In this document: positions 312-30,100 of the stretch, piece after piece
Layout of the letters: each line of letters begins with the position of its first letter
Numbering within the stretch: the first letter of the stretch is position 1
DNA from: Ectocarpus siliculosus
Lineage: Eukaryota > Sar > Phaeophyceae > Ectocarpales > Ectocarpaceae
NCBI GenBank assembly: GCA_000310025.1
Contig: FN649751.1
Location: 6,984,381-7,048,380 of the forward strand
Direction of reading: 5' to 3'
Length of the DNA: 64,000 nucleotides
Translations under genes and position numbers: made by a program
The notes under the pieces: generated by a model
The model's input: only the letters and a program-made list of their open reading frames with translations
What the model was told of the DNA's origin: nothing
The model's database searches: none

Positions 312-3300
312 CCGGTGATTTTGCGAGAGCGCATCCTAGTGTGGGACATCTCGAGGCGGAGGTAGGCGTTACTGCTATCGTTGCCGCCGATGCTCTTGTT
401 GCCGACGTCATGGATCGCGTGGGATGGTTGCAAAGAGACCTGCCTAGCCTAGCTGTGGCATAGTTTCCGTTGGTTCGACTGCTGTGCTGTGGCATAGTTT
501 CCGTTGGTTCGACTGCTGTGCTGTGGCATAATTTCCGTTGTTGGTGTTGCGAAGTGCGGTGTTGATTTTTGAACCTCGTCAGTCCGCCTACCATGCCATG
601 CGTCTCTCGTTCCTTCTCCGAAGCCTCATAGCTCGTGTGAAAGCATGCTGCATCGCCACACGGGAAGACAAAAAATCCAGCCTGCATGTGTTGCGCGCGA
701 CTTTCATGGAATGCAATGGTCGACACCCTTGTGTGGCAAGGCTGCCTGCTGTGCATCGCTGTGGAGAATCGACGGCCTTACCGACTATTCGTGCCCGCTA
801 GACGACCCGCACACTAGCACCGCTGTTTCACCTAACCTACTGCCGACGGCTTAAACTGTTTGTTCTCATCGCGGACTTTTGGGTGTGCAGGTGCATCATG
901 CTTGAGGCACCCCCGCGTGACGAGCTGGTAGCCTGGCTTAACGCGCACCCGAACGCGGAGGTCTACACGGGACAGGGCGACCCACATGACGGTCCGGGTG
1001 AGGGCGGGATCATGGCTGACAACGGCGAGCCGCGGTCCCAGCACGACATCATTTACCTCTGGGATGCAATCAATCGGAGACGCCTGCCTCTCGAAGGTCA
1101 GTGGGCGTCGTTTTGAGATGCGCCTTAACTCCTTCGTACGCTAAACGCGTTCCGAGGGAAGTGCTGTCAATTGGGTGATATTCCGGTTGGACAGAGTGAA
1201 CGTTACGTTTGTGAATAATAACACGCCGCGAATGGACGTGTTGTGCAGCGAGGACTTTGGGTTGGGTCAACGCCTTTGGGGGAGATGAGCGCTGCAGTTG
1301 CGTTGTGTGTGTAGACTTTCACGTCTCTCTTTCCGTCTCTCTTGCTCCTCATGCCCCCTTTCTTCTTGCGCTCCAACGCTCAACGTAGGCTCAGCGCGTT
1401 TTTTCTTTGTTTGCTCTTGCCAAACCCTTCCCCACGAGGCCTTGTGTCTTCCTGTTAAACATACAATACAACAAACTGGTACAGCGTACTGTAATAAAAA
1501 AAATGACGCGCTTTTTAGGCCCCTATCGCTATGATCACTTGTGTGTCTCTGATGGCTTTATTCCCGCTCCCCGCCTCTCATCCACAGAGTGTCCAAAGAG
1601 GAGGAACGTGGCCGAATTCATCGCCGTCCGGCCGCACCTGTTCCTCTACGCCGGCCAAGACATACCCGAGCAAATCGCGTGGTACGGTGCGTGGGAGGCG
1701 AGGGGGGTCGCAGACGCCTACGCGGCGGTGACGGCCCTGGCGGGCGGGGACGAGGACGAGCGCATCCCCCTGTGGAACACCGTCACCAAGGAGAAGGTCA
1801 CCGGGAACGGTGAGACTTCGGGCTGTGAACGTCTGTTGGTTGGCGAACAACAGTCTCTCTCTCGCTCGCTCTCTCTCTACCCCTTCGGTGCTTGTGCCCT
1901 CTTGGTGGCCACTTGTTTGCGTTACTACCATTATGCTGTCGCTCTTCTCGCCCACATTGCGTGTGATGAGACCGCAAGCAATCCTCGTCAGCAGGCAGTA
2001 CTCGCCTCGGCGTGAGACCTGGCAAGTTTTGATGTGCGAGAGGATCGCATGCTCGCCAGCCTAACACGATTGCACGCGGCTGCATCGCCTGAAAGTCCTC
2101 GTTCATTTTTTTCGTTCATTTTTTTTGTTTTTCACTTATTGACTACACCCGCACTCCGCCGAACCCCTCCCATTCCCACTGCATGGTTGCCAATTTCCAC
2201 CCCGGTGCCTCCGTGCGTGTTGTCGCAGATGCTCCAAAGCGCGAGGGGATCCACATGTTCCTTCGGACACGTCCGCACATGCAGCTCTACACCGGCCAGG
2301 GGTATGAGCCGGACGACGCCGGGGCAGTGCCGCCTCCACCACCACAGCAGCAGCGGCAGCAGCAGCAGCAGCTGCAGGATCAGCTGCAGGATCAGCTGCG
2401 TCAACAACAGCATCAGCTGCTGCAGCTGCAGCAACAACAGCAGCGGTACGCCTCAGACTTCGCGTCATCTTCACCGCGCACCGATGGGTCGCCAGAAGCC
2501 AGAGCGTCGGCGGACGCGAATGAGACCGCCGCCGCCGCTGCCGCCGCCGCCGCTGCCGCCGCCACCGTCGCTGGTGCCGCAACCGCCGCTTTCCACCGGG
2601 CAACGGTGGATCAGGTCAGCGGTCGCCATGCTGCAGGGCATCCGCCTGGACGTAGCCTATCCCCCTGCAACGTATGGGCCCGTCAGCCAGGTGATCCCAA
2701 CCAAGCCGGACGGACCACGAGCGGTAGCGCTCCGGCGCCGGGCGGGGGCGGGGGCGGCGACGTCGCCGGTTCTCCGGCGGTGCGTTTTGAAGGCGCCGTA
2801 CCGGAGAGGGCAGCGGCTGCTGTCCACCGCCACGAGGCGCAGTCGACGACAACAACGGCGGCAGGTGGGGCCGGTAGTCATCAGGCGCGCGCTCCCGCGT
2901 CCCCGTCGTCGGTGTCATCGCTGGAGACAGGGCGCGATCACGACCCGCGCGCCCCGCAGACGGCGCTCTTGGCCATGATTGATACCGCGTCCTCCTCCCT
3001 GAATGGCTTCGACGGGAGCACGGTGTCGCCTAGGTCGGCCGGGTGGGCCGGCCAGTTGCAGCCGGGGACCGCGGCGGCGGCAGCCGCCGCTGCCGCTGCC
3101 TCTGCGATGGTGAACGGCGGCTACACGTTCCACCAGCAGCACCACGCCCACCAAGCGCCCACCGTGATCAAGCAACCCCTACTTGTTCATCAGCAGCTGC
3201 CGCAGCCGCAGGCCTTGCAGCGCTGGGGTCAGCCCTCAGTGCCGCCGCTTCCCGCGGGGCCCGTTTGGATGCCCCCGCACGGGATCGCCACGGCGGCTGC

Positions 3301-6300
3301 GGCGGCAGCGGGGCCCGGAGGGGCGGCGAACGGGTTCATGCCCGTTCCGTGCGCCCCTGGGTCCATGGCGGCAGCAGCGGCGGTGACGCCCGAGTATGCC
3401 TTCAACGGGAACTTGCCGAGGTTCCAACCTAGCATCGCGTGGGGCGGGGGGTTCGTGGGGCAGATGGGCGCGTGGGGCATACCCCCCTCTGCCATCCCAC
3501 AGGCGGGGCTCGGCGGAGTTCCTACGGCGGGATTAGATCTCGCTGCGCTAGTGCAGACTCTAGATGGCACCTCCAAGGCATCCAAGGCTAGTGCAGCAGC
3601 AGCAGCAGCAGCAGCGACCCCCGTGAAACGGGCGCCTGAGCCTGAGAGGCGGGCTGCTCCTCCTTCCGTACTTGGGGCTGGAGGCGCTGCTCAAGCTGCC
3701 GGTGCGATGCATGCTGCGTCTGCTACTGCTACTGCTAATGTTGACACGGGTCCAGACGCGAGCGCTGCGGAAGCGAGCTTAGTGGGGGTACGCCGGGTGC
3801 GCGAAGAGCCGAACGGCGACGGCGGCTTGGGCCAAGGGCAGCAGCAGCAGCAACGGCAGCAGCAACAGCGAGAGCAGCAGCAGCAACAGCAACAGCCGCC
3901 GCCGCAGCAGCAACAGCAGCAGCCGCAGCCGCCGCCCCAGCAGCAGCAGCAACAACAACCGCCCCAGCAGCAACATTATCAACCGCCGCAGCAGCAGCAG
4001 CAACAACATCAACCGCCGCCGCAGCAGCAGCAACAACAGCCGCCGCCGCCGCCGCCGCAGCAGCAGCAGCGGCAGCAGCAGCAGCAGCAGCATCAACAGC
4101 AGCAGCAGCGGCCGCACCAACAGCACCAACAGCAACCCCTCCACGACCAGCGCGTATCGACACACACGCCGGCACCAAACAAGAGGTTCAAGGGCAGGGG
4201 GGGTGCCGTTCTCAGGGGGCGTGGAGGCGCCGTGCTGAAGAACCAGAACAAATCTCCCAGCCCAACCTCGTCATCCGCGAACCTACATGCCGGCGGCGGC
4301 AGTGGCGGCAGGGCGGCGGCGGCAAACGGATCCGGGGCGGCACCCTCACAGACCGCGGAGCACCCGCGGCAAGGCCCCAGAGGGGGCGACGCGGATGGCG
4401 GTGGCGTGGCATGTAACGGGGATAGTGGGGCCGGAAAGCGGCCCGCCGCGGACCGTGTTGCGGGGGAGGGGCTGGTAGGGCGTAAGAGACCCGCGGCTAG
4501 GAAGGGCAAGGGACCGGCGGTCAAGGGGCTTGTGGGTGGCAAAGCGCCTGCGGCCAACAAGCCGGTAGCGGGCGGCAGTGGGCGCGGCGTTAGCGACGCT
4601 GAGGTCAGCGGCCGTTTTTTGTTGTTGTTGTAGACGGACTCTTTGTTGTAGTTGATCTTTTCCGCTTCAAGACATCGACGAAGCTTCCTTTCGGCGCTCA
4701 ATTCTCAAGGGATATGATCCGGTGTGCCGCAGTCTAGATCCCAATGTCGTGTTCTGCACGCGGAGAAGTTCGCCGCAAGGCTTTTTTCTGGAACTTGTCC
4801 TTGGCCTTGTTGACCTGTTCCCGTTTTTCGTCCTTCCTTGCTGCTGTGGGGGCACTTGTTCGTCTATCAATCGTCTTTGGCAGTTACAAAGAATCCTGTC
4901 CGGGGGCGACCCCGATGACCGCATATATATGTGGGACCCCGTGAGGGAGACCAAGTCGTACGGCGTGAGAGCTCCCAAGCGGAAGACGCTGCCCGAGTTC
5001 ATCAAGGTATGATATGTATGCGAGAAAGAGCCGTCCAGGAGGCCAAGCGGTGCCGGCACCCCCGCTATGCCACTGCGGTTTGCCTTCCAGCCCCGAGGAG
5101 AGGCCGTCCTCCCATGTACAATGCTGTCGTGTACCTTTCTTGACGAGATGCCCACGAATCACACCGGAGCCGTGTGGTATGCATGTCTTGGGTATGTTGT
5201 TTTCTCACCGCCCTTATCTGGCCGCTTGCGAAATAACGGGGAGCGGGAGGCTATCCAGGCCGCCGCCTTGTTTCGTTCTTGACGTGATGGGCATCATAAC
5301 TCATGTTAGGGTGGGGGGCAATATTGTACCCCCGTGGCCGCCGCCGATGCTCCCCAATTTGTCCGCCTTTGTAACCTTTCCCCAAGCCGTCATTAATCAA
5401 CGCCCGCATCCCCTCTCCCCCCTCGCTCCCTCGTCGTTTTGAAGAGACATCCCTTGTACGAGCTCTACGTGAACCAGGACTCGAGGGCGAAACCCGGCTC
5501 GTCTGGCTCTCGGCCTTCGGTAACGTCTGGCTCTCGGCCCTTGGCATCGTCTGCCTCTCGGCCTTCGACAACATCTGGCTCTCGGCCATCGGCGGCCTCA
5601 GCGGCGGCCGGCCCACCCCCGTCGAAGCTCGCAGCACAGGAGACCTCTCCCGTCAAGACGACGACGATCCGACCCCTGGACCGTAAGGCGTACAATGCCG
5701 GGAGGGATGTCATCATGAAGATCCAGAGCAAGCTTGACAATGATGTGGTGGCCCACAAGGCTCATCTCAAGAAGGTGAGAGAGCGAACCCGTTTGTCTTC
5801 AGGCTGGTAAGCGCCGCGCGTGGAATGGTGCCGAGCCCCGTGATGAATCGTTCACCGCGCGCGACCTCTGCAGACATAGACTTGTGAAGATGGCCGCCAG
5901 GGTGCGAGTTGTACCACGCCTTGAGATGGACCCTTCTCCGTCTGATCACTGCGATGTTTCCTGTCTCGCTCTACGTGAACTTGGTGCTTCACCATATTTA
6001 GCTTGCCCTAATCGTATGTGTCGTCCTCCCGCCTGCCCTACGCTGAAACACGACCATACGCCGATTGGTCGTTGTTGTTCCGTACGTGCAGGCGCTGCTG
6101 GAAGTGCGAGAGCTGTTGCTCGGCCTCCGGACGCTGCCGAACGCCCGCAACAAGGCGGCAGCGGACGTCCTGCTCCTCCTGGCCCACACGAAGACCTTCG
6201 CCGAGCCAACCAACTACGCCACGGTGGTGGGGGACCCCGTCCAGGTCCTGGCGAAGGAGATCGGCAACAACGTGCCCAAGGCGGTGCTTGCTCGTTACAA

Positions 6301-9300
6301 GACCGAGAAGCGCTTGGCGATGCAAAAGAGAAAGAAGCGAGACTCGAGGGCGGCGGCTGCGCTGGCCGCTGCCGCCACCGCCACCGCCCCCGACGGAGAC
6401 GCAAGAGGAGGAGGAGCAGCATCAGCAAGGGTAGGGGCGGTAGACTCTCCGTCGTCTCCCCCGTGCACACCGTCCCGAGCAGATGCTGGAGGTGATGGTT
6501 TTGGTGGTGATGGTGATGGTGCTGCCTCTACTCCTGGGAAACCTTCCCCAGCGGGTGTGGCCACAGCCGCCGGTGACGGTGATGGTATGACGACACCTTC
6601 GGCGAGGAGGGCGGGAGCAGGGCAAGCGTCATCGCCAGACGAAAATGAAACCGCTTCGGGCGCTAGCGATCCCGCCACCACCGCCGCCACCGCCGCCATC
6701 GCCGCCGCCGCCTCCGCCACCGCCGCCGCCCCCGCTGGCAACGGGAAGGGAAAGAACAAGGCGAGGAGCGGCAGCCTCGCCCGCGCGTCGGCCATGGTTA
6801 GGGCCAAGGCAGAGAAGACAGCAGCGGCGGAGGAAGCGGCTGCTGCTGCTGCAGCGGCGGCGGCGGCGGCGGCTACGGATACTCCGAAGGTCGCGGAAAA
6901 TGGGAAAACCCCTGAGAATGCCGCTGAAAATGAGAGCGGATCGTCCGACTGCGAGTCGGAGGCAACAGCACTCGCGAGCGAGGGGGAAGGGGCACCAGGA
7001 GCGGCGGCGGCGGGTACGGCGACAGCAGTGAACAGCGGCAGGAAGCAGCCGGCCGCAAGGGCAACGGCCGCCAAGTCTGCGTCGCCGGCGCCTGCAACCG
7101 GTGCGAAGCCTGCTAGCGTCGGCAGCAAGGGGAAGAAGCAGGGCGGGTGGAGCAAGAGAGCCAGGGCTCGACAGAGAAGAAGCACGCCGGCGAGGCCGAA
7201 ACCCCCTCCGAAGCCGCAGGGACCGAAGCCGGGAGACGGGTGCCTGAAAGGAGACGAGGTGTGTTTGGCGCCGCTGTGTATGTTGTGTTGGCCGGTGTTC
7301 GTCGTGGCAGGCTCCACTGTCTTGAGCAGCTAGTTGTGGGTGTACTATGGACCGCTAGAGATGCCCGGTTCCGCCGATCACCATATTTCACTGTCGCTCG
7401 CGCACAGATCCTGTGCGGTGGCAACGTAGCAGAAAAGTGCCGCTCTTGTTTCTTCCGCATGATTTCCGCTTTCCTCATATCCAGTTTCGCTCTCAACTCC
7501 CCTTGTTTGTCCACGGTCCTTCCGTCGCGGAAAATTGTCTGCGTTCGTTGATCTGGTGCAGGTGATCCACGAGTACTGGCCTGTTTCCGGGCCTCACTTC
7601 GTTCTGGCACAGCTCCTGCAGTGGCACAATGATGGAGAGGGGGGTAACCCCAACGAGCCTTTCGACGACAAGCTCCGAGGGTAAGCCGCCTTCTATTACC
7701 TACCCACACACCGTGCAGCGCGGACTATAATAGCGGGTCGTGCTACTCTGCCATCTATCGCTCACGTACTTCGGTCGGCGATGCGGTATGACTTTGTTTT
7801 CGACTATCGTTTTAGCTTGCATGAAATACGATATTTCGCCTTTGTCGCTCATATTGTATCGGAAGTGGGGACATGCGGGTGTTTTTTCTCTTGCGCCGGT
7901 TGTGCCGAGCAGAAGCCTTGCTTTCTCTCGCACCCGCCTGTCCCATTCGCGCCTCCCCCCGGACACAAACATCTGCGACATTTGCTATATGGACCCCCAC
8001 GCAACCGCGCGCCCCCCCGCAGTTGTGTCCGCCTCCCGGACGTCCTAGAGGCGTACGAGGGCATCGGCAGCTACACCAAGGACCAGCGGAAACTCCTCGT
8101 GACCCACCTGGAAGACCCAGAGCAGAGAAAGCACCCCTGGCCCGCCAAGCTCGACGTCGCCTTCGGCAAGGAGGACCCGGAAGAGCTCGCTGCCAAGGAG
8201 GCCGCCGCCTCTGCCGCCGCCGCTGTAGGCGAAGATCGAGGAGACCGTTCGGCGGCAGGAGACGCCGGTGCCGGTAGCGGCGGCGGCGGCGGCGGCGGCG
8301 CCGAATCGGCCGCCTCCCCCAAGGGCGACGCGCCCGGCAGCGGCGGCAGCAGGGGACCGGGGGGGAAGTTCACCGGAAAGGGTAGACGCGCCGGGTTCGG
8401 TGGCAAGGGGGCAGGGGCGGCCGCGGGGATGGCGGCCCCCGCCGGCGGGCTTGTGCTCCTCGGAAGCCCCATGGTAGACGCGACTCTGGAGGACACGCAG
8501 GGGCTCAAGGAGGTGATCGAGATCTTGAAGCGGGAGACCGGGCTCTCGGAAGGCGCTAACGGGGACGAGGGGGCGATCACTTTGAGGATGGAGGTGTGTA
8601 TGATGCTTGTGCGGGCGGGGGCTGTGGGGTAGGTGGAGGTGGTCGGGAGTTTGGGGGCGCAGGTGGGGGCAGTCGGGCCGAGGAGAGAGAAGGGCAGCGA
8701 CGGGCCCGGCTGCTGACGCCTTGCGTTTCGGTTTTGAACGAAGGTCATGATTTGTGTTTCACCGCACGTTGACTTGGATGTTTGATCGACCAACGGGCAT
8801 GGGTGACCACGATATATGGCAAGGTTTTGTTTCGGCAGATCCGTGCACGTCTCACCTCTCATGACTGTTTTAAACAACACATGTCTGGGTCGGCGTCGGT
8901 GGAACAGGAGGACGGGCCGCAGAACAGCACACCCACTCCGTGGGCTCAGTGCGACAGGTGCCTCAAATGGAGGAGAATACCCTGGCACATCGACCCTGAA
9001 ACGCTCCCAGAGTTGTGGACTTGCGAAAACAACACCTGGGATCCAGAGACGGCCAGCTGTGACGTGAGCTTTGTTCCGTCGTTCATATTGGAAGTGTGTA
9101 CATGCAATGTTCTTATGGAATGTTATTTGTACAACGTGTCAAATGTTTGTCTTGTATCATTCGAAGCTTCACTACGGTCATCATTTTTGTCTTTGGTATT
9201 CGTTTGTGTGCGATGCTGCCCGTCGCTGTCATCGTTGCTCTCTTGTAGCCTAGCCAGCCGTGCGATGGAATGGGCGAAGTCAGGAAAATGTGTGGTGTGA

Positions 9301-12300
9301 GCTCAGCAAAACCGAAGTCGTGGCACCACGTGCGTTGCTCTTGTTCATCAGGTTAATGCTATCAGCCGGTCGCTCCCCCCTGCCCCGCTTTCGACGTGTG
9401 TCCTCCTAAATGGCCTGTTTGTTATTTGAAACCTCAAATGTAGGTGGCAGAGGTTGTGGACGAGGAGGACATGGAGGCCTCGGTCATTGCCGGCTCCGCT
9501 ATCGTCGAGGAGAAGGCGCTAGTCGTGAGCTCTTGGATCGATGTTTTCTGCAACCAGACGCACAAGTGGTACCCCGCTAAGGTAATCAAGGAAGACAGGG
9601 AGGGAGACCGCGTGCTGGTGCAGTTCTTCGGCTGGTCGGAGAGATACAACCAGTGGGTGTCCAAGGTGCGTTTGGTGGCGGTGCGTTTTTATGGCCGGTT
9701 ACAGGCTGGGGGTTAGGGGAGGGTGCCTGATGGTGGCCGCGAAACTGCATACTTTTCTTGATTTTCTTGCTTTTTTTGCGGCATGTTGTTCTGTGTTGAA
9801 CTTTCGAGAAGAAGATCGCGTGGTACATCTGTTGTGGTGATAAAATGATGCTTTTTTGCCGGGCAGTATTTGCGTTTGCAGCTATTAGTTTTTCCACGTT
9901 TTTCGGTCATGTGCCCCTGGCTGGCCCAACTACCCGCTGGCGCTTCAATGCTGAGCAGCCAGTTCGAGAAACCTGACGTGTATGGTATTCGTTACCCCCA
10001 TCCCCCGACTTGGTTGGAGGTGGTTCGGGGATCAGGCCGTAACTTGGCACGATTTTTTACCATCATCACTGGGCGTGTTGTAGGGAATCGAGCTTTGCAT
10101 GTCTTCGTCCGAGTTCCCGCCCTCGCCCTTTCACTGACATTGCTGCCGTCCCGCTGCCTTCGCCTTTGCCGGTGACGTTGTTCTCGGTGGAACTCACGTT
10201 GCGCAGAAGAGCAAGGACCGCATCCGCCGGGTACACACCCATACCCAGGAGGTCGCACCCGCCCGCAAGTGGCTCAAGTAAGTAGACAGGCCGGCCAATC
10301 AAGTATCAACGGCTAGCGCAAAGAATGGGCGGAGAAGCTTTGTGTGCCAGCGTTAGTGTTTTGGAGAGGGGAAGGCGATGGGCGTTGTTGGTGCTCAGTA
10401 TGTTGATTGTTGTCGACCGTTTTTTGTTTCGAAACACACCGGTTTCCGCGGTCGAGGCGATGCATACATGATACCAGCAACTCCTGGAGATCATGACGCC
10501 CCGCTGTTGCCACTCACAAATGCACGCGGTCACTCACTGTCGCCGCCGCCTCGTCCTCTGGAACGTTCACGTATGCGGCAGATTCCGCATGGTGTTGTGT
10601 TCACTACCAAATATTGTTGAAATCTTGCTGCTTGTAGGTTCATCGCTAGAGTGTTTTGGGTCCTCTCTTACGCTTCTTGCTTCGGTTGGTCTTGTTTTTT
10701 GTCATCAGTAAAATGTACGGCCCGGGGTCCGGCGGTGGGTCCGAAGCGGAAAGGAGCGAAGCGGAGACCAAGCACCCGAAAAAGGGAGGGAGCGATAGAG
10801 ATGGAGGTGCATCAGGCAGCGGGTGTGGCTCCAACGACAAGCGAAAAGCCGTGGTGTTGGCGAAAACCGCCACACCAAAGGTGCGCATCTCGGCGGGTCA
10901 GATGGGACAGGTGGAGACGAGGGATTTGCGGGCAGAGACAGAGGCACAGACAAGCAGAGGCAAAGAGATGCTCGAACTTCTACTTATGTATCAACCATGT
11001 CGATGGTATCGTACTCGTGTTGGCCATAGTTCCACCGAATCTGCAACTTGGCCAGAGGCACCACCCGGAACACCGTATCATACGCAACGCCAATTACTGG
11101 TTGTCCCGCACCTTTCCCCCGAACAAGCACCTCTTGCCCCACCTGAAGAAGGCCCATCATTTCTCTCTCCGCCCCCCCCCCACCAGTCTGACTTCGTGTA
11201 CTACGACGGAGCCCCCAAGAGTTCGCTTTCGAGAGAAGAGAGAACCGAGGCGCGCCGCAATCGCACCCCGGCCGGACCGCATCCGCCGCCCAACGCTAGG
11301 TCGCCCCTCGTCCGCAGAAAGCTTGGCGGGGCTGCCAAGAGGAATATGGAGAGAAAAATGGCAGCCACGGCGGCGGCGGCAGCGGCGGCGGCATCAGCAG
11401 CGGCGGAAGTGGAGACTGGCGAAGCTTTGGGTGGCGAAGGTGATGGCAGCGATACGCCTGGCCGGCTTGGGGGGGCAGAGGCGGCGGCTGGTGATTGTGG
11501 CCGCGGAGACAATTTTGGAACCGAATCAAAGGATTTCGAATCCGCAGCTTCGGCGGCGGCGGACCGCGCGGTCCACAGCAAGGCGGCGGAGCACTTCCGG
11601 AGCTGGACCTCCAACGGAGACAGCGAGGGCGCCGTGGCGGCGGCGACGGCGGCGGCGGCGGCAGCGGCGGCCCTGCTGAAGCGGGGCGAGACCCCTTTCA
11701 AGCAGGACGAAGCGGACCACGCCAAGAGCCTGCTGTCCGGGCTGGCGACTGCCTTCCATTCGTCGCCGACGAGGGTGGCGAAGGAGACCTGGAAGCGATC
11801 ATCGGGCGGGTTTGGCGACTCGCCAGCGGAGCAAGACAACGGCCGTGGCAGGAACGGAGCGGAGGCCGGGGGGCGGTCCATGCTGACCATCTCGGCTCGG
11901 GACAGAGACCTCGCCCACTCCCCGTCGTCGTCGGTGTCGTCTTCGCCGGTTAGGGGCAAGCGGGTCTCGCCCATGTCTTCCCCACTGTCCTCCAGGATGA
12001 TGACCCCTCACCTGTCCATGGACTACCACCGGTCCGAGAGCCCGGGAATCGGGGACTCCGCTGCTGGGACTGAAAATGGCGGCGACCCCGCTCGGACGGA
12101 GAACGGCGACAGTCAAGCAGCCGTAGATCATCAGCACAGCGGTGGTTCGAACGGCGATCAATCGCACGACGGCGGAAGCGACCGCGCGGACGAGTGCAAC
12201 AACTCGGGTTGTCTCGAGGGTGGGGATGGCCATGCCCCGAAGACGCAGCCTCCTTGCTCTGCGTCCCCTCTCCTGCGCAGCGCCATCAACGGAAACAGCA

Positions 12301-12824
12301 GCGGTGGTTCGTGTGCCGCCTCCGCGCCCTCCTCCACCACGGCGGAAGTCAAAGGCACTCGGCAAGATGGGGAAGACAAGGCCAAGGGCGACGACAACGC
12401 CAGGGACGACGCTGCCAATCCCATGGCAGGCGAAGGGGAAACCACTCCCAGCACCAACACTAGCCGAAGCAGCAGCAGCACCACCGGCAGCAGCAACAAC
12501 AGCCCTACGGCTTCCAACTCTGCTGACAAGCCAAGCTCCCCGGTCTGCCCGCGCCTCCCGACACAGGCTGAGGCCGTTGACGGCGACGCTTGGGCGTGCA
12601 ACGGCCGCCGGGACGCCCGAGTCCCGGTCCGAGTGCCCCCCACCCTGGCCTGGAACCCGCCCCCATCCGACCTCGCCTCCGGAGGCTTGCAGCGCTCTTG
12701 CAAGCGACGCAAGATGCTCAGCGACGTCGCTCCTTCGCCGTCCTCGTCCTCCTTGACGCCGGGCCTGATGGAGGCGGAAGGGTGTGCTGCTACGGCGACG
12801 CGTCGGCCTTCTTCCGCCCCATAG
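312..12824 (+). CDS. Large chromatin-reader-like protein: four W..APKR..HP..LYxGQ modules, CW zinc finger, Tudor/chromo-barrel-like domain
   Basis: Proposed exons: 312-361, 891-1096, 1588-1809, 2229-4603, 4884-5006, 5445-5774, 6092-7258, 7562-7680, 8023-8593, 8839-9063, 9249-9296, 9444-9665, 10207-10277, 10709-10880, 11187-12824 (stop). All phases agree and give about 2,500 residues. Seen in order: three about 45-residue modules near residues 5-48, 70-112 and 143-190; a Gln/Ala/Pro-rich stretch; module four near 960-1005; a helical region near 1100-1170 weakly like a TFIIS N-terminal domain; a second ordered region near 1490-1590 (EYWPVSGPHFVLAQLLQWH, then PDVLEAYEGIG); a CW zinc finger near 1755-1800 with CDRC, KWRR, WTC and SCD; a Tudor/chromo-barrel-like stretch near 1840-1885 (KWYPAKVIKEDREG, GWSERYNQWVSK); and an Ala/Ser-rich tail. 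CW domains commonly bind methylated H3K4, so a nuclear chromatin role is inferred. The first exon and the exon 9 donor are the weakest calls, and the true start may lie upstream of the window. The protein as a whole is not recognised. Confidence 0.72.
453..540. repeat. 34-bp tandem repeat, about 2.6 copies
   Basis: A 34-base unit starting ctgtggcatagtttccgttg is present at 453-486, again at 487-520, and partly at 521-540 with one mismatch. It lies in the proposed first intron of the CW/Tudor gene. No function is visible. Confidence 0.9.
3838..4140 (+). repeat. CAG/CAA tract encoding a Gln/Pro-rich run
   Basis: About 300 bases of CAG and CAA codons broken by CCG proline codons, inside exon 4 of the CW/Tudor gene (roughly residues 695-796). 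Mixed CAG/CAA codons and Pro breaks make it an impure repeat, more stable than a pure CAG run but still likely to vary in length. The same reading frame has Ala runs at 2528-2578, 3070-3100 and 3595-3615. Such tracts are common in nuclear regulators. Confidence 0.9.
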
Positions 12825-18752: not shown

Positions 18753-19043
18753 GTGAGAAACGCCACCAAGCTGTGCCGAGGCTGCTGAACCAACACGTAT
18801 CTGTCAAGATAAAGCCATGCATACCTAGTCCTCTAGTAGCTTCCCAAACCTTGAGCCCCAAGGGTATTTTTCCGGTCGAGGTTTTCTATTGCTGCCTCAT
18901 TGGTGCAGTATAGAGTGACTCTTTGCTCGGTCGAGCATGCATTGCGTTGGGCCTGCCACACCTTGAGGTGCACAAGCCGTTCCCCGTACAACCTCGCTTA
19001 TCCCCAGCACGACGTGCAATGTTTCCGCGTTAACATCCAAACA

Positions 19044-19295
19044 GCGGGGCGACTGGACGAGGCGGAGGAGCTGCTAAGGCGCTGTCTGGCGACTAGTGTG
19101 GCTAGACTGGGTGAAGATGACATCAAGGTCGGCAAAGTACTGCACCAACTTGGTGTTTGCGTTCAAGCGGTCGGGCGACTGGACGAGGCGAAGGAGCTGT
19201 TCGGGCGCCGGCTGGCCATCTTGCAAGCCAAGCTGGGCCGAGAAGGACTCGAGTTGGACCACTCGCTCTACTGCCTTGATCTTCGACAAGCTCAG
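19044..19295 (+). pseudogene. TPR exon remnant, copy A (about two units)
   Basis: This encodes about two 42-residue TPR units of the same type as at 25264-27156: GRLDEAEELLRRCLA, then LHQLGVCVQAVGRLDEAKEL. It ends with YCLDLRQAQ before a GTAAGG donor, just as the intact copy ends with YCLDLCLAQ before GTATGG. The first helix of the first unit is missing, and the repeat number is 2 against 15. It follows the PARP-like exons by about 290 bases, so it could be their 3' continuation. Truncation and the broken RING downstream favour a decayed duplicate. Confidence 0.6.
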
Positions 19296-21595
19296 GTAAG
19301 GCAAGTAGATGTTGGTAGCTTCGCGAGGATTGGACAGATGTCGTTATCGCAGGCGATCTTTTTGTGGTCGTTTCGTACCCAGCACGTCTTACAGCTTTGA
19401 CTTCCAGGCATTTGCGTATAGGGAAGACTTAGATTTACACCTACCACTAAATCAGCCAACACGAAGGGGATAAACAATAAACAAACACGTCCAATCGCTA
19501 GATTCACGGTCCAACTGTCTCCTCGACCACAACTCTCTGACAATCGGACAACCGAAACTTTGGTTATATGTAGTTCAGTTCTTTCGAAGCGAACACCTCA
19601 TCTCCTCAACGACGTGGGAGTGTAACTTCTGAAGCTGGGAATGGTCCCGATGTATTCGACATATGCAGCCCGTACATCATTAGTTTGGTGGTTTTTCGTG
19701 CCTCGGCAAATCTCTCTCTTGCGGAGGGGCACGCCGGAGCCTCGTGGGTATGTTGCCGTGTGCATGCTCAGAATAGGCATCTGTGGCGGGTACGCTGGAC
19801 GCGGAAAGTCGCGGGAGCAGGTTTTCCATGTTCTGCGGAAAGAAGGCCCTGTCAATCAGAAATATAGCCCATCAAAGACGCGAGAAAGGAAACGCCCGTA
19901 TGCTCGTTGCAAACACGTCTCCCGCCACGAACGACAACAACATGCCGCTTAATCTGATCGCATGGCATATGTGTTCCCATAACCCATCATATATTGCTTC
20001 GGAGATGGTACCGTCGCCTCTGCTTGATGTATCGCGCGAGTTTGCAGTTTGTCCCTCCCCGAGAACAACGTTTCCTCACAGCCGTTAGTCTTCGCATTTG
20101 GGTGATTCCATCACTATCTCAATTCAATATTGTGCTCGTCCACACTTCGCCGCGGGCAGAGCGATACACTGTAGACTATGCATGCACCCACACTTGGCTT
20201 CTGGGAGCGTGCGCTCGCGTCTCTGCTTGTAACGCGTTTCGGATATTCTTTTCAGTTCCAACAGAATCTACAATCGCAAGAAAATATCGCCGAACCAGTG
20301 GCCGGTTCACTTGTACTCAAATCCCATAACAGTTGGGTGAATCCCCCTGGCACTTGTTGTCCGCGCGGGATGGCTCCGAAGAACGCATGCGATGTTTGTA
20401 ACAGAATCGAGCACTATTCGTATCAGCCCTCGGGAGGCTTGTAACCCGTGTCCCGCGGGGAGGACCTTGAATTTCATGCAGACTGACAGACGTTATCCGG
20501 GTTGTTATACGTATCCGTCGGGTTGTGAAAGAAAGCAGGGAGAGACTTACCGATTTCGGTGCCTATAGGTTGCATTTCAGCATCTCGTTTACAATAGGTC
20601 CAAGGAATATCGAAGCTTCCCTAAGGCACAGGGGATAAAGGCGATTTGCCGATTATTGGTGTATGTTGGATGAGGCCCCCGTCCCCGCAGAGGACCTTCC
20701 TTGATGTATTTCCCCATCCTTCGTGAGCATATGGTGCCAGTAGATGCTCTGGATATTCCGTAGATCTTAGCAAACAGTGAAGAGACTACAAGGCATTTGT
20801 GGAGGTAGCCGCCCCGTGGCGGTCGGGCACAGGATCAAACGGTTCCGAGTTCTGGCGGAAGTTGCGGAAGGGCAGCTATTGCGGAAGAAATCATAATCGC
20901 CGCATCTTCGAGCGCGTCTTGAACAGAACACTACAGTCAAAAGCTCGGTTTTCGGCACCATGAACCGTAGGAGGAAATTTCCAGCGAAGGCCGCCGTTAA
21001 CGTGAACGTTTGCCCTTCTCTCAAAACCGGATCACTAGTGACCAGGGGGGCAGGGTGGGCACCGATTACAACCTACCTGCGAAAGTTGGGGGAGGATTGG
21101 AGGATGGAATCAAACTTGAACACATTGTTTGTCTATCCTGCCAGTCCGTCGTGCTAGTTGGAGTATCGCCATTATTCGAGATGCGGATTTTTCGGCACAC
21201 TACGGCGTGCATCCTCCCCACCCTATAAGTGGTAGCCGTTGCCCAACCTACCCGCAACCTCGTATCTGGCCACTGGCCATACCCTGTTTACCCCACACCC
21301 CGCGGGCCCCCTTGCTGGTCCTCTCCGTGCTTCTGCCTCGGCCGATTCCCGTGCAAGAGGCGCTTCGAGCGACGTACCGGTTATTTTATACACCACGGTC
21401 TACGGAACACGACGAGGACATCAACGAATGCCAGGTAGTAATGCAGCGGTCCTCCTGGCGACAAGGCATCGTTCGTCGTAAGATCGAAGTACAACCGGCT
21501 AGAAGCGTTCCTGCCTCATGGCTGAATGTGCGTTCGTCTTTCCCTGCCCTTGACTACCTGTACCGCCCGAACCTTTCGGCTCGATCTATTCCCAG

Positions 21596-22720: not shown

Positions 22721-24951
22721 AAAGAATGATACACGACAGGTGATAGAGGAAAGTGCAGCAGCTGCGGCAGGCTTCTATTATACCCTTCAGTTGTTCGAAA
22801 TCGTGAAACGCAAGGAGCTGACAGACATCACATTTTCTGTACCAGTCAATAGCTGCCTCGCCAACACTATACGTGCGGTACAAGTACGGTAGTCCTGGTA
22901 CTGCTGTAGAAGATAGAGTGAAATCGCAGACAATAGTGCCAAGTACATCGAGCTGTAAATGGGTTTCATCAACCGCCATAATAATGACGCAAACCTCACA
23001 TTCTTAGAACTTCGCAGCGCGGGTATAGCGGTGCCTTGGTGGCGTGGCGAGCAATTCCCAAAATCAGACCAAATTGGGAGTGAGGTTGTGAGTCTCGAGG
23101 TCCACCACAAAGAAGCAGCGGCTCATCACGGAAGAACATGGCGAACCACACGATCCGGAAACCACGTCACACCCTGCTTGAGTGAGCCGTGTGCTGATGG
23201 TGTCAACTCTCCCCTTCCATGGTATTGATACTTGAATGTTCGGGGCCAACTCGTGGGGCTTAATACACCAGCAACCGGTGGCGTGTGCTACTGTTACTGG
23301 GTGCCAGTGTGCTGTTGGCCAGCTCTCTCAGCTGGTGGCAGAATTCCTCCACTGTGAGTGAGGTGGATACTGCCACCGTACCCATGGCAAAAAACACCTC
23401 AACTTGAATACTCGTCCAAGTACTCGTCCGTCCGGTCCTACGAGATTGTGCTCGAACCACCTGTTGCGGCCCAAGATTGGCGTGTTTTGCTCTTCCGAGT
23501 TTGAGCCTGGATGTCGACCTGGCTGTGTTCTTTTATTAACTGGATGACATATCGTGCGTGGGGGCAGGGGTTATGCATGTGTGCAGCACGCACCTGATTT
23601 CCGACCTGCGGCCCCTCGCTCCCCCTCTCCATTTCTGGGCTCGGGGCTCGGGGCCATTCCGTGATTCCGTGCCTCTGGGCTGCAAAAAATGCGGCACGAT
23701 TGCCGACCCAAAGATGGACGAGCCCGCTGATTGGCAGCGGACCCCGGTCCCGCCGCGATATCCTCTCATCTTCTCATCGTCGAACCTCCTCTCCGCACTT
23801 TCGCCTCTCTTCCCTTCGCAGACGCCCGGCTACCTGCATAGGTGCTCAAGGTGAGGAACATTTAGTGAGAAAGCATGGTTAAACATGAAGGGTTGCTCAG
23901 GTCATCGGACACGTAGCGTCGGGAGCTGGGTAGCAGCCAGCAGGGTGAGGGACGCGGCCTTCACACGGTGAGGATCAGGAAGACGAAGCCGAGCTTTAAC
24001 TTTGCGCCGCGTAAACGTTGTAGGAAGGCACACTGTACGCTTATGGCGAGGTTTGTCGATCACAGGTTCGTGGCCTTGAAACTGCGCTTCTAAGGATAGG
24101 CTTTCCTCGAGCATAACCGGTGCGGCCTCTATTGCAGAGTGCGCGAACCCTGAAAATAGGAATGATGAGTTAGAGATTGAGTGAATCACTTCCAGCTGGA
24201 AGCTAACGATGCAGTGATTTTTCGCCGAATCCCCATGTAGGTACACCAAGACAACATGCACCGGCCATTTTCGGCTACGGCGCTCGGCAACACCTCAGTC
24301 GGGCCCGACTGGTGTCTCCTGCCGTGCTTGCTGTCTGGACATTGAACTGGTAGCTGCTGCTCAAAGTGACTCGTCTTTTATTTGTAGATTGATGCAACCA
24401 AACATACAAGTAACTGAGTCACCGATCGCACTACTCTGTAGAAGGCCCATTCAGGATGCACCAACATTGGCACCCACTTTGAGGCTGAGATAACAATGTA
24501 TCGTGAATGCCTACTGTAGGTCACGTAGAATGAATCTGTACGCTCGACCGCATACATCTCTGCAAATTTTCGGTCGATCTACAATGGTCTAAATTCTGCA
24601 TCAACCGGCTCTTAGGCTTCTAGCATGTCAAACTCATCCACAGTAGCACTACAGTAGGAGAATCTATCGAGCATGTACTGTAGCACCACGAGAGGATATC
24701 CTTTTGAATAGAACTATAACGAGTGGCTTTGCGGGTTTGCGGTCGGTCGTTACCACGCGCGAGCTTGTTGAGCAAACTTTGCGACGCAAACCTACGGCCA
24801 GCTTGTTGTGTCGTCGCCTGCGCGCGACCTTCAAATTTCGGTTGGTCCCTTTCGAAACTATACCTCGTCGGGCTGGCTATAAACACCGACTTCATACTTT
24901 TTCTCCGGAAGCCCCTGCTTCCTTCAATGCGCTTCGTAGGAGGTATTTTGT

Positions 24952-27189
24952 GTGGAACAGGACCCCCACAGAGAAACACTCTTTTGGGAAGAGTTCCCTC
25001 GAACATATGTGCAACTGCAGTACATGACTCGAACACAGAGGAAACGACTTCTGGACACCTACCGTATCCCTCAGTTGGATGAACTAATGCGTACGCCCTT
25101 GGGGATGCTCGGAGATTCAAAAATTCGCGGCAAACCATCAACACGAGCACCCATTATAACAGGAGAATTGTCACACTGTTCAATGTTTGAAATCATCACA
25201 CAGCCAAGCTGCAAAGTCAAGCACTGGAAGTTCGAGGCAGGGAAGGTGATGTCGGAAACGCAAGCACTTCGCATCCATGGTGCACGAGTTCAGAACGAAG
25301 GACGACTGAAGGAGGCGGAAGACATATTCAGGCGCTGTCTGGCGATCGAGGAGACCAAGCTGGGTCGAGAGGATGTGCAGGTAGCCATAGCACTACACGA
25401 CGTTGGAAAATGCGTTCAGCAGTTAGGGCGATTGGATGAGGCAGAGGAGCTGCTCAGGCGCTCTCTGGCGATCAAGGAGGTCAAGCTAGGTCGAGAGAAT
25501 ATGCAGGTGGCCTACACACTACACGAACTCGGTTTCTGCGTTCATATAGCGGGACGGACGCAGGAGGCGGAGGGGCTACTCAGGCGTTGCCTGGCGATCA
25601 AGGAGGTCAAGCTGGGTCGGGAGGATGTGCAGGTGGCTTACACGCTGCAGAGGCTTGGTGAAAGCGTCCGCCAGGAAGGAAGGTCAGAGGAGGCGGAGGA
25701 GCTGTTCAGGCGCTGCCTGGAGATCACGGAGGTCAAGCTGGGTCGAGAGGATTTGCAGGTGGCTGTGGCGCTACACGACCTTGGAAAATGCGTTCAGGAG
25801 ACAGGGCGATTGGATGAGGCGGAGGGCCTGTTTAGGCGCTGCCTGGCGATCAAGGAGATCAAGCTGGGGCGAGAACATGTACAGGTAGCCAACACGCTGT
25901 ACGAACTCGGTCGGTGCGTTAATGAAGCAGGGCGACTGGAGGAAGCGGAGGGGCTACTCAGGCGCTGCCTGGCGATCATGGAGGTCAAACTGGATCGAGA
26001 GGATCTGCAGGTGGCCTATACACTACAGGAGCTCGGTGGATGCGTTCAGGTAACGGGACGGCTGGAGGAGGCGGAGGAGCTGTTCAGACGCTGCGTGGCG
26101 ATCAGGGAAGCCAAACTTGGACATTACAACCCGATGGTGGCCTGCACGCTCCACAGCCTTGCAAAGTGCGTTCAGGAGGCGGGGCGACTGGAGGAGGCGG
26201 AGGAGCTATTCAGGGGCTGCCTGGAGACCATGGAGGTCGCGCTCGGTCCAGAGGATTTGTTAGTGGCCACAACGCTCCACAGTCTTGGTGAATGTGTTCA
26301 GCAGACAGGGCGACTGAAGGAGGCGGAAGAGTTGCTCAGGCGCTGTCTGACGATCAAGGAGACCAAGCTAGGTCGAGAGGATGTAGATGTGTCGTATACG
26401 CTCCACAGCCTTGGTGAATGCGTTCGTAAAGGAGAGAGGCACGAGGAGGCGGAGGAGCTCTTCAGGCGCTGCCTGGCGATCAAGGAGACCAAGCTGGGTC
26501 AACAGGAGGTGCAGGTGGCCTACACGCTGCACGAACTTGGTGAATGCCTGCAGACGGTAGGGCGACTGCAGGAGGCAAAGAAGGTGTTCAGGCGCTGCCT
26601 GGAGATCAGGGAGGTCAAGCTGGGCACAGAAGACGTGCAGGTCGCCGTGACGCTGCATAAGCTTGGTCAGTGCGACCAAAAGGCAGGACGGCCGGAGGAG
26701 GCGGAGGAGCTGTTCAGGCGCTGCCTAGCGATAATGGAGGTCAGTTTGGGCCCACAGCATACAAACGTGGCCGTGGCCCTGCACCGTATTGGTGAATGCG
26801 TTCAAAAGTTGGGGAGATTGGATGAGGCGGAGGAGCTGTTCAAGCGTTGCCTGGCAATCAAGGAGGTCAAGCTGGGCCGAGAGGATGTGCAGGTTGCTAC
26901 GACGCTGCACAGACTTGGCGAATGCATTCTGAAGGCAGACCGACTGCAGGAGGCGGAGCAGGTGCTCAGACGCTGCCTGGCACTCAGGGAGGTCAAGTTG
27001 GGCCGAGAGGATGTGCAGGTTGCCTGCACCCTGTACAGCCTCGGGGAGTGCGTTCAGAAGGCGGCAAGTCGGCAAGAGGAGGCGGAGGAGCTGTTCAGGC
27101 GTTGCCTGGCGATCACGGAGGTCAAGCTGGGTCGGGAGGATGCGCAGAGGGCCTACACACGGTACTGCCTTGACCTTTGTCTTGCTCAG
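24952..27189 (+). CDS. TPR-array protein, 15 units in one exon
   Basis: The frame is open from 24952, but the TPR array begins at 25264 and a better start may be the ATG at about 25249. The preceding 100 residues match nothing I know. The array has 15 tandem 42-residue units (25264-27156; the last has one extra residue), with consensus LHxLGECVQxxGRLEEAEEL then FRRCLAIKEVKLGREDVQVA. The exon ends YCLDLCLAQ at a phase-0 donor (GT at 27190), so coding continues, perhaps to the RING exon at 31063. TPRs of this kinesin-light-chain type bind partner proteins. The same unit is used in brown-algal NB-ARC-TPR genes, but no NB-ARC P-loop is visible here. Near-identity between units suggests recent repeat duplication. 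Confidence 0.85.
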
Positions 27190-30100
27190 GTATGGATAAG
27201 CCTGGAGTAGTACGTTGTTTTCGATGGATGGAAAATTTCGTGCAACAAGACCGTTGATCATAAGATATCCAGGACATGAAAGAGCGTTCACCTTGAGATG
27301 TCTGATGGAGTACAGTCGATAATAATGGGGAGGAAATAATTGAACCCAAAGTACACACTCCCGTCTCGATGAACAACTGCTCTATTTGGACGGAAACACC
27401 TCTTCGACCTCTTCGACCTCAACGCTCCGACAACCGTACACCATATTCTTGTTCGATTTCTTTCGCGGTAAACAATCACACCAATCTACCACGTGCGGTA
27501 ATTTGTTACTATTCCTGTTTCTCTGCAGCTGGAAAGTATCCATTTTTCGAAACCACTGACAGAAAATTCATGAAGGAGTGCGCGAGGTGACCACTATCGG
27601 TTTCGGCGCAAAAAGGTTTCCCTAAACTATTCGTATAGACTATTGATGGCCACGCCTTTCAGTAGCTCCGAGGAATTACGAAACTGCAGAGGCGGCGGGC
27701 AGGTAGACTGTCAACTAGTAATTCGCGAATGGAAGCCTTGGGTTGGAGTAGGCCTCGCGCCCCGGCAGAGGATCCTTGCTTGGCGTAAGTCCCCACGCGA
27801 AGTGGGAGCTTCGTGCGCGTATGGTGCTGGTACGGTATCTGGGTGAATTGTCGAACGACACAAATTACCGCAACAGGCGATCCCTACGGTAAGAACTTTA
27901 TGCCCACCTCTGGTGGCGAGGGTTTGGTGGCGGGTATAGGGGTGCCTTCTAGTCGTGACTTCAAATGTTGGTTTAAAAGGCCAAGTGGATCGATACTTTA
28001 GTGTTTTGTCCTGTTACCCTGCCGAGGAATATTCATGAAGTACGGTATATTTTACAGATATGAGGCCTCCATGGGACGGCCCGTGGTTTCGTCGATGCAC
28101 CGCTACAAAGCTGATTGTACCCCCCGCCGTTGATCACTCAGGCAATACAATACGGACTGGTTTCATCGCAAGCACCTTTGAAACTGCAAGATGTTGCGTG
28201 TGTGCCGTACTCTGGAGACTACCGAGATTGCCAAAGGTGGTCTCAACGAAATACCTCCTTACGGGATCTCTCTTCTAGCTACCCGGCCTTCATAGTGCTG
28301 TCGACTGGTATCCCGACGGTGAAATAAAAAAACCCAACGCGAAAAGGATGCATCGTAGGTCGCCCGACATGCCGTTCTCAACCGCAGGACGGGTGTCATG
28401 CCTGTTGGTCGTGTCGGAGGGCGGCCACGATGTGCCCCGCGGCCGCGTAGAAGGCGACAACAAGTTCCCGACAATCTCCATCTAACCCTACCATTGCCTC
28501 CCCCCAATGCCCGAAGCTGACTCCCAAGCGCACAACCGAAGGTCACATCCCTGGACTCAAATTGTATCTTTGAATGGGTAGGAACCACGGTAATGTTCAT
28601 TAAACTCCCCAAGGAACTCCCAAGTTCTGCCTTTTTTGGCGCTCTATAGCTTGAGAAACGCGAAGGTTTGGCGTGAGCATGTAGTTGCCTGCAGCGGTGC
28701 GTTGTCAATGTGGAAATCTTACATTCCATCGGCAAACAGTTGGGAACGGAGGACGGGCGACGCGAATGGGCTTTCGTGATTGGAAATGGTAACGTTGTCG
28801 TCATCACAACGAATCAAAGGTATCAGCCAAAGCCGTGCACGGGAATATTGCCCTGGCAGACCACGCGATGGCCTGGGGTGGCGTGTAGAAGCTCTGGCAT
28901 TCCCCTCTGGGCCTTCGGATGGAGTACCTTAAGGGGCACTAGATACTACACACCGACATCAGAAACCCCTTAAGATACCCTCGAGAACGTCACACGGCGT
29001 GATGAAAGTTGAAACAGCTTGCCAAAGACGGCAAGCCATCGGTCGATTCATCACACCGGTGACATGAGACACTGCACCCCATCAAGCCGTTTCAAACGAA
29101 TTGCCTCGTATGTGATCATTGTATTGAATATTCGCATGTCCGTTCTAGCTCGAATGATACTCGCACGCTCTGCGCGACGTGCTGGTCAAAGTTTGAACGT
29201 TCCCAACGGGGGGTATACAACAACTCGTAACCAGCGGAGTAGTGCAGCCTCATGGCATCGCACCCTCTCACTATCACACCCCTCACGATAGACGACAGTT
29301 TTGTGTTAAACCCACCACGTGTTGTCAAACTCCACTCTACTTTCACAACGCGAAAAAAGACCAAACAGTGTGAGATTGCGTTCTTGACCATTTCAGCGAT
29401 CGGCTGACGTCCACACCGATGAAAAAGATATCATACCCCCTGTAGAACACCACACCACGTGACAACATTCAAGTCCTCAAGCATTGTTCACCGAGATGTG
29501 GAAACTTCTAGCAAACTTCTAGTCCGCCCCTTGTCAGTGGGGACAGCACCGCCGCTTGTCATGCCAGCCAGGCATCTTGTTCCACGAAAGCCCGCCGCAA
29601 ACCTATCACGCACAGCTTTCAGGCTTGGAGCCTCGACATATTCCATGTTTCCTTTCTCCTGAAACAATGCACATGAGAGTTCCGCGCACCTCCGTGAAAT
29701 CGGGTGGCGTGCGTATAGAATGGCAGGAAATACAAACGAGTGGTTTGAGGCAGGAATACAGTTTCAGAACACCCAAGTCCATGTTAACGTCACCCCCGAA
29801 AACACTTTCCATCGGTGAAGCCCCATGACTTCGATGCCGATCCGGGTTTAGCGTAGGGATGGCACGCAAATTGGTAGAAAATGTAAAGTAGTTGTAATCC
29901 GAGCTGCTGGTACTATTGCAGTGTGCCCATCACGTAGTGACTCCCCTTGTTTCTTTGACGACGGCTACGTGCAATCTTCAGTTGGTACAGTCGTCGGATA
30001 AGAACGTTGTCCCCAACGTTGATGGGTGCAACAACTGTGTTTGGGCGATACAGTAGCCCAAACAAACCTCTGCAGTACTCTTTATCTGTGCTAGACACGG

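Follow-up and report, generated by a model that had tools for sequence, protein, structure and literature searches.

The window analysed here is a stretch of 64,000 nucleotides from the brown alga Ectocarpus siliculosus (contig C26:6984381-7048380). It carries part of a gene that extends into the upstream sequence, of which about 29 kb was also examined. With a probability of roughly four in five, judged from sequence, this locus encodes a SET protein of the SDG2/ATXR3 type, most likely a histone H3 lysine 4 (H3K4) methyltransferase, in which SDG2_C encloses four BRK domains and precedes a CW zinc finger and a Tudor-like domain. The best reading is of an SDG2-type methyltransferase with two gains, a BRK array for docking and a CW finger that would read the enzyme's own product, with both binding and catalysis predicted.

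The assignment to the SDG2 family is carried by the order and continuity of the domains. In the spliced pieces of the predicted protein, Pfam domains appear in the order SET, SDG2_C (profile positions 2-100), BRK, SDG2_C (198-284), SDG2_C (288-372) and zf-CW. The SET domain scores 46.5 bits (E 5.5e-12; cut-off 22.4), and the three collinear parts of SDG2_C (PF19633) score 62.8, 36.7 and 31.8 bits (cut-off 27). An extra piece of SDG2_C (profile 158-189), weak alone at 13.7 bits, lies directly ahead of the array. When residues 438-1502 and two low-complexity stretches are left out, the SDG2_C match reaches 140.4 bits (E 1.1e-40) in two stretches, the better of which runs unbroken across the join (profile 158-410). 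By our own conversion, the four BRK copies and a glutamine-rich spacer belong to a stretch of about 1,094 residues at a point where the SDG2_C profile has eight positions (between 189 and 198). A genome-wide SDG2_C search yields two matches about 8 kb apart, which flank the array: C26:6990469-6990660 at 27.5 bits, and C26:6982400-6982492, which at 23.6 bits falls short of the cut-off of 27. A missing match elsewhere in such a search is no proof of absence. The SET part retains the histidine of an SHSC motif as well as a GEELTMNYG motif, after which comes a CxCxxxxC post-SET stretch. Read from the motif, this histidine seems to be the equivalent of H1866 in SDG2, the major methyltransferase for H3K4 trimethylation (H3K4me3) in Arabidopsis (PMC11842272). 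The H1866K change abolishes SDG2 activity, in that the tethered catalytic domain no longer deposits H3K4me3 (PMC11842272). SET followed by SDG2_C is also the identical order found in SDG2/ATXR3 of flowering plants, from which the algal protein differs in the BRK insertion within SDG2_C and in the CW and Tudor-like domains placed after it. The plant enzyme marks active genes.

The four-copy repeat is, by its sequence, the BRK domain (Pfam PF07533; curated cut-off 23 bits). Spliced copy 3 scores 31.1 bits (E 1.8e-7), with profile positions 4-38 of 44 aligned; a spliced stretch of three copies scores 45.5 bits (E 6.1e-12), and BRK reaches 40.0 bits in the Pfam scan of the spliced pieces. A profile built from the four copies gives four significant matches among PDB sequences, all to BRK domains (CHD7, CHD7, CHD8 and CHD8; E 4.8e-6, 1.2e-5, 2.9e-5 and 4.3e-5), and the CHD7 match spans columns 2-38 of the 47-column profile. 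BRG1 ranks fifth of ten (E 0.19), and the remaining five matches are unrelated (from E 0.63). A first-pass annotation of this DNA had left the module without a family name. The profile search returned a known, named domain, and the Pfam match of copy 3 together with the CHD7 and CHD8 matches supplies the name; an unnamed new domain is thereby rejected. Individual positions of the BRG1 BRK domain recur in the algal copies (BRG1 sequence from PMC7728349, residue roles from PMC7096718). The equivalent of V617 is isoleucine in all four copies, and those of P634 and P647 are each proline in all four. The W642 equivalent is aromatic throughout (W, F, F and F), that of A633 is alanine in three copies and cysteine in one, and that of L643 reads L, I, L, I. 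The core positions V617, V619 and L643 are hydrophobic in every copy. Relative to BRG1, the algal copies have an additional invariant tryptophan at the I620 position and an LYxGQ-like tail.

The partial gene model comprises 20 exons (A-T) between genome positions 6979833 and 6994657 and encodes 2,307 residues with no stop. All 19 junctions of this predicted model are GT-AG, with agreeing phases. The gene starts 4.5 kb or more before the first letter of the window, and the exon that opens the array is the ninth of the partial model, which corrects the first-pass annotation. The SET domain was invisible to that annotation, since the window begins downstream of the SET exons. The features are given below in window coordinates, except for the SET exons, which are placed on the upstream sequence piece L004.

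L004:5033-7123, upstream of the window: SET exons.
312..361 (+): exon I, in which the N-terminal part of BRK copy 1 (from 327) follows five linker residues; GT-AG and in frame with exon H.
891..1096 (+): exon J, which completes BRK copy 1 (C-terminal part, to 990) and opens copy 2 (N-terminal part, from 1042).
1588..1809 (+): exon K, which completes BRK copy 2 (C-terminal part, to 1673) and opens copy 3 (N-terminal part, from 1755).
2229..4603 (+): exon L, which completes BRK copy 3 (C-terminal part, to 2314) and continues as a long linker rich in Q, A and G.
4884..5006 (+): exon M, most of BRK copy 4 (from 4914).
5445..5774 (+): exon N, end of BRK copy 4 (to 5492), an SGSRPS-type repeat, and SDG2_C resuming at about 5703.
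6092..7258 (+): exon O, middle part of SDG2_C (profile to 284, window 6092-6280), then low-complexity sequence; N and O jointly match PF19633 at 36.7 bits (profile 198-284).
7562..7680 (+): exon P, start of the third part of SDG2_C; P and Q jointly match PF19633 at 31.8 bits (profile 288-372).
8023..8593 (+): exon Q, third part of SDG2_C continued, a low-complexity insert and the end of SDG2_C (profile position 410 of 420 is reached without the low-complexity inserts).
8908..9063 (+): exon R, CW-type zinc finger (from about 8941); the exon start is uncertain, 8839, 8908 and 8923 all being in phase.
9444..9665 (+): exon S, Tudor-like domain (from about 9537), preceded by the end of the CW finger.
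10207..10277 (+): exon T, in which the Tudor-like domain ends; with its codon still open at 10277, the gene continues.

Open frames adjoin the model on both sides. At window 10650-12824, 3' of the Tudor exons, lies a frame of 724 residues with no Pfam match at E 1 or better, directly followed by a run of N; it may hold C-terminal exons of the methyltransferase gene. On the 5' side of the SET exons, a frame of about 510 residues (L006:9322-9999, running in frame into L004:3-854) has no Pfam match and is a possible N-terminal exon of the methyltransferase. No Pfam model passed its cut-off in eight upstream frames or in the 10650-12821 frame. The open frame at L006:6915-7220 contains a WPGVNKEGG stretch that, by eye, has the look of an SH3- or Tudor-like barrel; its Pfam match, SH3_15 at 13.6 bits, is below cut-off.

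When residue numbers are mapped onto the exons, BRK copy 1 occupies window positions 327-361 and 891-990, copy 2 positions 1042-1096 and 1588-1673, copy 3 positions 1755-1809 and 2229-2314, and copy 4 positions 4914-5006 and 5445-5492. Each of the four is split by one intron. Three copies lie close together and are followed by a glutamine-rich linker of about 770 residues and then by the fourth. Pairwise identity between copies is 13-16 of 45-47 positions, and seven columns of the four-copy alignment are invariant (I3, W6, P19, R21, P32, Y37 and Q40). A profile made from any three copies recovers the fourth, with 22.2, 36.0, 37.3 and 30.9 bits for copies 1-4 as the one left out. In the accompanying control (500 shuffles of the protein per run) the best scores were 3.5, 1.3, 3.8 and 3.5 bits, and in none of the four runs did a single shuffle reach the left-out copy. 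The introns of copies 2 and 3 lie at the identical place, in phase 1, two residues ahead of the invariant proline; this coincidence of place and phase suggests that the two copies are the product of exon duplication. The copy 1 intron lies farther upstream, in phase 2, and that of copy 4, in phase 0, directly ahead of its HP. The protein of exon K, searched against this genome, matched only itself. Matches to glycosyl hydrolases from exon K (Pfam, 11.6 bits) and from the spliced array (NCBIfam, 11.8 bits) are below threshold and are taken as chance. A GCA-type repeat lies inside exon L at window 3838-4134. The intron of BRK copy 1 contains a tandem repeat of 34 bases at window 452-540 (2.6 copies, 98% match).

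The CW zinc finger (PF07496) scores 59.6 bits (E 3.1e-16; cut-off 27.5). Its closest PDB relative is MORC3, followed by MORC4, ZCWPW1, ASHH2 and MORC2 (18 distinct sequences at E<=0.1). In the alignment with MORC3, four cysteines, the tryptophan ahead of the first cysteine and the tryptophan of KWR all match. We take the aligned cysteines to bind zinc and the aligned tryptophan pair to form the cage for methylated H3K4. ASHH2 (SDG8) of Arabidopsis, whose CW domain is among these PDB matches, likewise carries a CW finger within a SET methyltransferase. It is a histone H3 lysine 36 (H3K36) methyltransferase that is not known to contain SDG2_C or BRK and has a different domain order. The closest solved relative of the Tudor-like domain, by phmmer, is the Tudor domain of PHF20L1 (E 8.1e-7), which sits in another protein context. 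This domain also ranks first in Foldseek (E 0.051, with none of 281 matches at 0.001 or better), where the query was a low-confidence predicted model of the Tudor exon (mean predicted local distance difference test score 64.4). The first-pass annotation had described four segments of about 45 residues at 327-5480, with W, (A/C)P(K/P)R, (H/R)P and (L/V)Yx(G/N)Q in fixed order, lying 5' of a CW finger and a Tudor-like domain. The invariant columns and leave-one-out profiles bear out the repeat, and the zf-CW and PHF20L1 matches bear out its position.

A number of observations weigh against an SDG2-type H3K4 methyltransferase with BRK domains. The SET motif is SHSC, compared with NHSC in NSD2. 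Against the PDB, the H3K36 enzymes NSD2 and SETD2 rank ahead of H3K4 enzymes, including KMT2A (among the best 60 of 90 sequences at E<=1), and H3K4 specificity therefore rests on the SDG2_C relationship. Only one of the four repeat copies, copy 3, passes the PF07533 cut-off alone. Spliced copies 1 and 4 remain under it at 18.3 and 18.4 bits, copy 4 drops to 14.3 bits within a longer spliced piece, and copy 2 alone has no Pfam match, yet the profile built from the remaining copies picks it up. Two groove residues of BRG1, G625 and K626, are retained in none of the copies. A PF07533 search of the genome gave no match over the cut-off and two below it, namely copy 1 of the array (16.9 bits) and a half motif on contig C481 (18.1 bits). 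As a control, sub-cut-off matches occurred in two of 14 genomes, and scores of such size mean little alone. This search cannot show the absence of other BRK genes, because the intron-split copy 3 was itself missed. For the Tudor-like domain, every Pfam match is under cut-off. Finally, the gene model is predicted from sequence alone and is partial, its first exons and the gene end lying outside it; splice sites were picked by reading frame and motif, so that the agreement of phases is partly by construction.

Three other explanations can be set against this background. The one that survives best, although unlikely, holds that the array is a lineage-specific, weakly constrained loop insertion, made of real BRK copies that have no binding role. 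The low identity between copies, the low complexity and simple repeats around the array, and the loss of G625 and K626 from all four copies would fit such a loop. Drift alone, however, would not be expected to keep seven invariant columns in copies so diverged, among them the first-strand isoleucine, the AP-motif proline and the counterpart of P647, and the aromatic residue at W642 is present in every copy. It is decidedly improbable that the locus comprises two adjacent genes, the first for an SDG2-like SET protein and the second, downstream of it, for a separate adaptor with BRK, CW and Tudor-like domains. The H-I intron (636 bases) is an inferred one, and if the locus were broken there, both sides would keep an open frame. 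Against this, phases agree over the H-I junction, the two halves of SDG2_C flank the array collinearly, and the genome search, with the limit on missing matches given above, offers no other source of either half; a separate adaptor gene is judged unlikely because SDG2_C spans the array. That the module is a new fold, resembling BRK only in a short motif, can hardly be credited: the four copies do share an extra tryptophan and a C-terminal LYxGQ-like tail not found in BRG1, and copy 2 goes unmatched in Pfam, but BRK comes first in searches in both directions and the alignments cover profile positions 4-38 of 44 for copy 3 and columns 2-38 of 47 for CHD7.

For an SDG2-type methyltransferase with an internal BRK array, the following mechanism is proposed. 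(i) The SET domain would methylate H3K4, as its family membership predicts. (ii) The BRK domains, which have a GYF-like fold and a predicted peptide groove in animals, would act together as a multivalent platform on which transcription or remodelling partners dock. (iii) The CW finger, to judge from its aligned tryptophans, would bind methylated H3K4 and keep the enzyme on chromatin already marked. (iv) The Tudor domain might supply a second methyl-lysine contact. Docking is proposed for BRK because the BRK domain of BRG1 binds CTCF zinc fingers in vitro in the micromolar range (PMC7728349), because plant ATXR3 has an N-terminal GYF module, and because none of the five GYF_2 matches in the algal genome lies on contig C26 (an exon-by-exon search that can miss split domains, in a region where the upstream exons are partly modelled). 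In vanilla, ATXR3 orthologues have GYF_2 fused to the C-terminal SET and SDG2_C domains (PMC13132833). The BRK array of the algal enzyme could do the job that the GYF module may do in plants, namely partner docking, with several copies lending avidity. The first-pass annotation had proposed a repeated module that binds chromatin or partners, and the comparisons support the binding of chromatin partners as a probable role. A more ambitious proposal, that the brown-algal SDG2-type writer is a self-reinforcing write-read-dock enzyme in which four BRK domains of related GYF-like fold, instead of the plant GYF peptide-binding module, recruit transcription machinery directly to an H3K4 writer, in a lineage from which Polycomb repressive complex 2 and DNA methylation are reported to be missing, is offered tentatively and is open to considerable doubt. 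Matches to GYF_2 above cut-off occur elsewhere in the genome, at C10:2429336-2431246 and C289:9529-9684.

BRK has been described as a domain of animal chromatin remodellers and of the Drosophila splicing regulator PPS, with its function given as unknown; CHD7-9 and Kismet have one or two copies (PMC7096718). The algal copies resemble the BRK domains of CHD7, CHD8 and Kismet and of BRG1 and BRM in domain sequence and in several core and groove residues. They differ from those of CHD7-9 and Kismet in number and setting, with four in a SET protein as against one or two in remodellers. Literature searches returned no paper on BRK in a SET-domain H3K4 enzyme, none on ATXR3 in Ectocarpus and none on SDG2 in stramenopiles. 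Among the matches listed for the BRK domain, no title concerns an algal or SET-domain protein, and the sole match for BRK with algae treats CHD6-9 in the passage concerned. A 2026 survey of brown-algal chromatin describes Trithorax-related SET proteins and two SET families specific to brown algae (PMC13076208). Its main text names no BRK, ATXR3, SDG2 or zf-CW, though its supplements may list the gene. The main text of an Ectocarpus histone paper does not contain 'BRK' as a whole word (PMC7784034), and that of a survey of plant histone methylation families contains no ATXR3, SDG2 or BRK (PMC10178440). As far as these searches reach, the parts are known and their architecture, a BRK array within an SDG2-type methyltransferase that also has a CW finger, is undescribed. 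The suggestion in the first-pass annotation that the architecture may be undescribed survives in this form, and not as an unnamed module.

If true, the presence of BRK in a brown-algal H3K4 writer would mean that the domain is older, or more mobile, than its occurrence in animal remodellers and one splicing regulator implies. The algal gene would provide a setting in which to seek the BRK partner beside a defined enzymatic output, and the unusual combination of domains could allow a single protein to write one chromatin mark, read it and dock onto it. Polycomb repressive complex 2 is reported to be absent from brown algae, as are DNA methyltransferases other than DNMT2-type ones (PMC13076208); against this background, how H3K4me3 is targeted becomes a question that the gene makes testable.

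The half motif on contig C481, at 73360-73425 on the minus strand (L005:4892-5158, minus), resembles the second half of a BRK domain (SP..L..YL..HPEYDV) and scores 18.1 bits, or 17.9 as a reading frame, against the cut-off of 23. It has SP instead of AP, and its aromatic residue and following proline are spaced as in BRK. A loose motif scan upstream of it found no convincing first BRK half. The half motif overlaps another open frame, and an RRM domain adjoins on the same strand (37.6 bits); it may be chance or a second, split BRK. In a scan of viral contigs with the four-copy profile, six stretches fitted the pattern and none was confirmed. EsV-1-7 repeats (PF19114) are very abundant in this genome, with 880 first-look candidates, of which all 150 that were scored passed the cut-off; none occurred in 14 control genomes. 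By itself such abundance points to a brown-algal source as probable, if not certain. The EsV-1-7 family is expanded in brown algae and patchy in other eukaryotes and viruses (PMC7457493). Farther along the window, an open frame of 756 residues at 24940-27207 consists of tetratricopeptide repeats (TPR_12, 484.9 bits in 11 stretches), and a shorter frame of the same repeats lies at 18855-19397.

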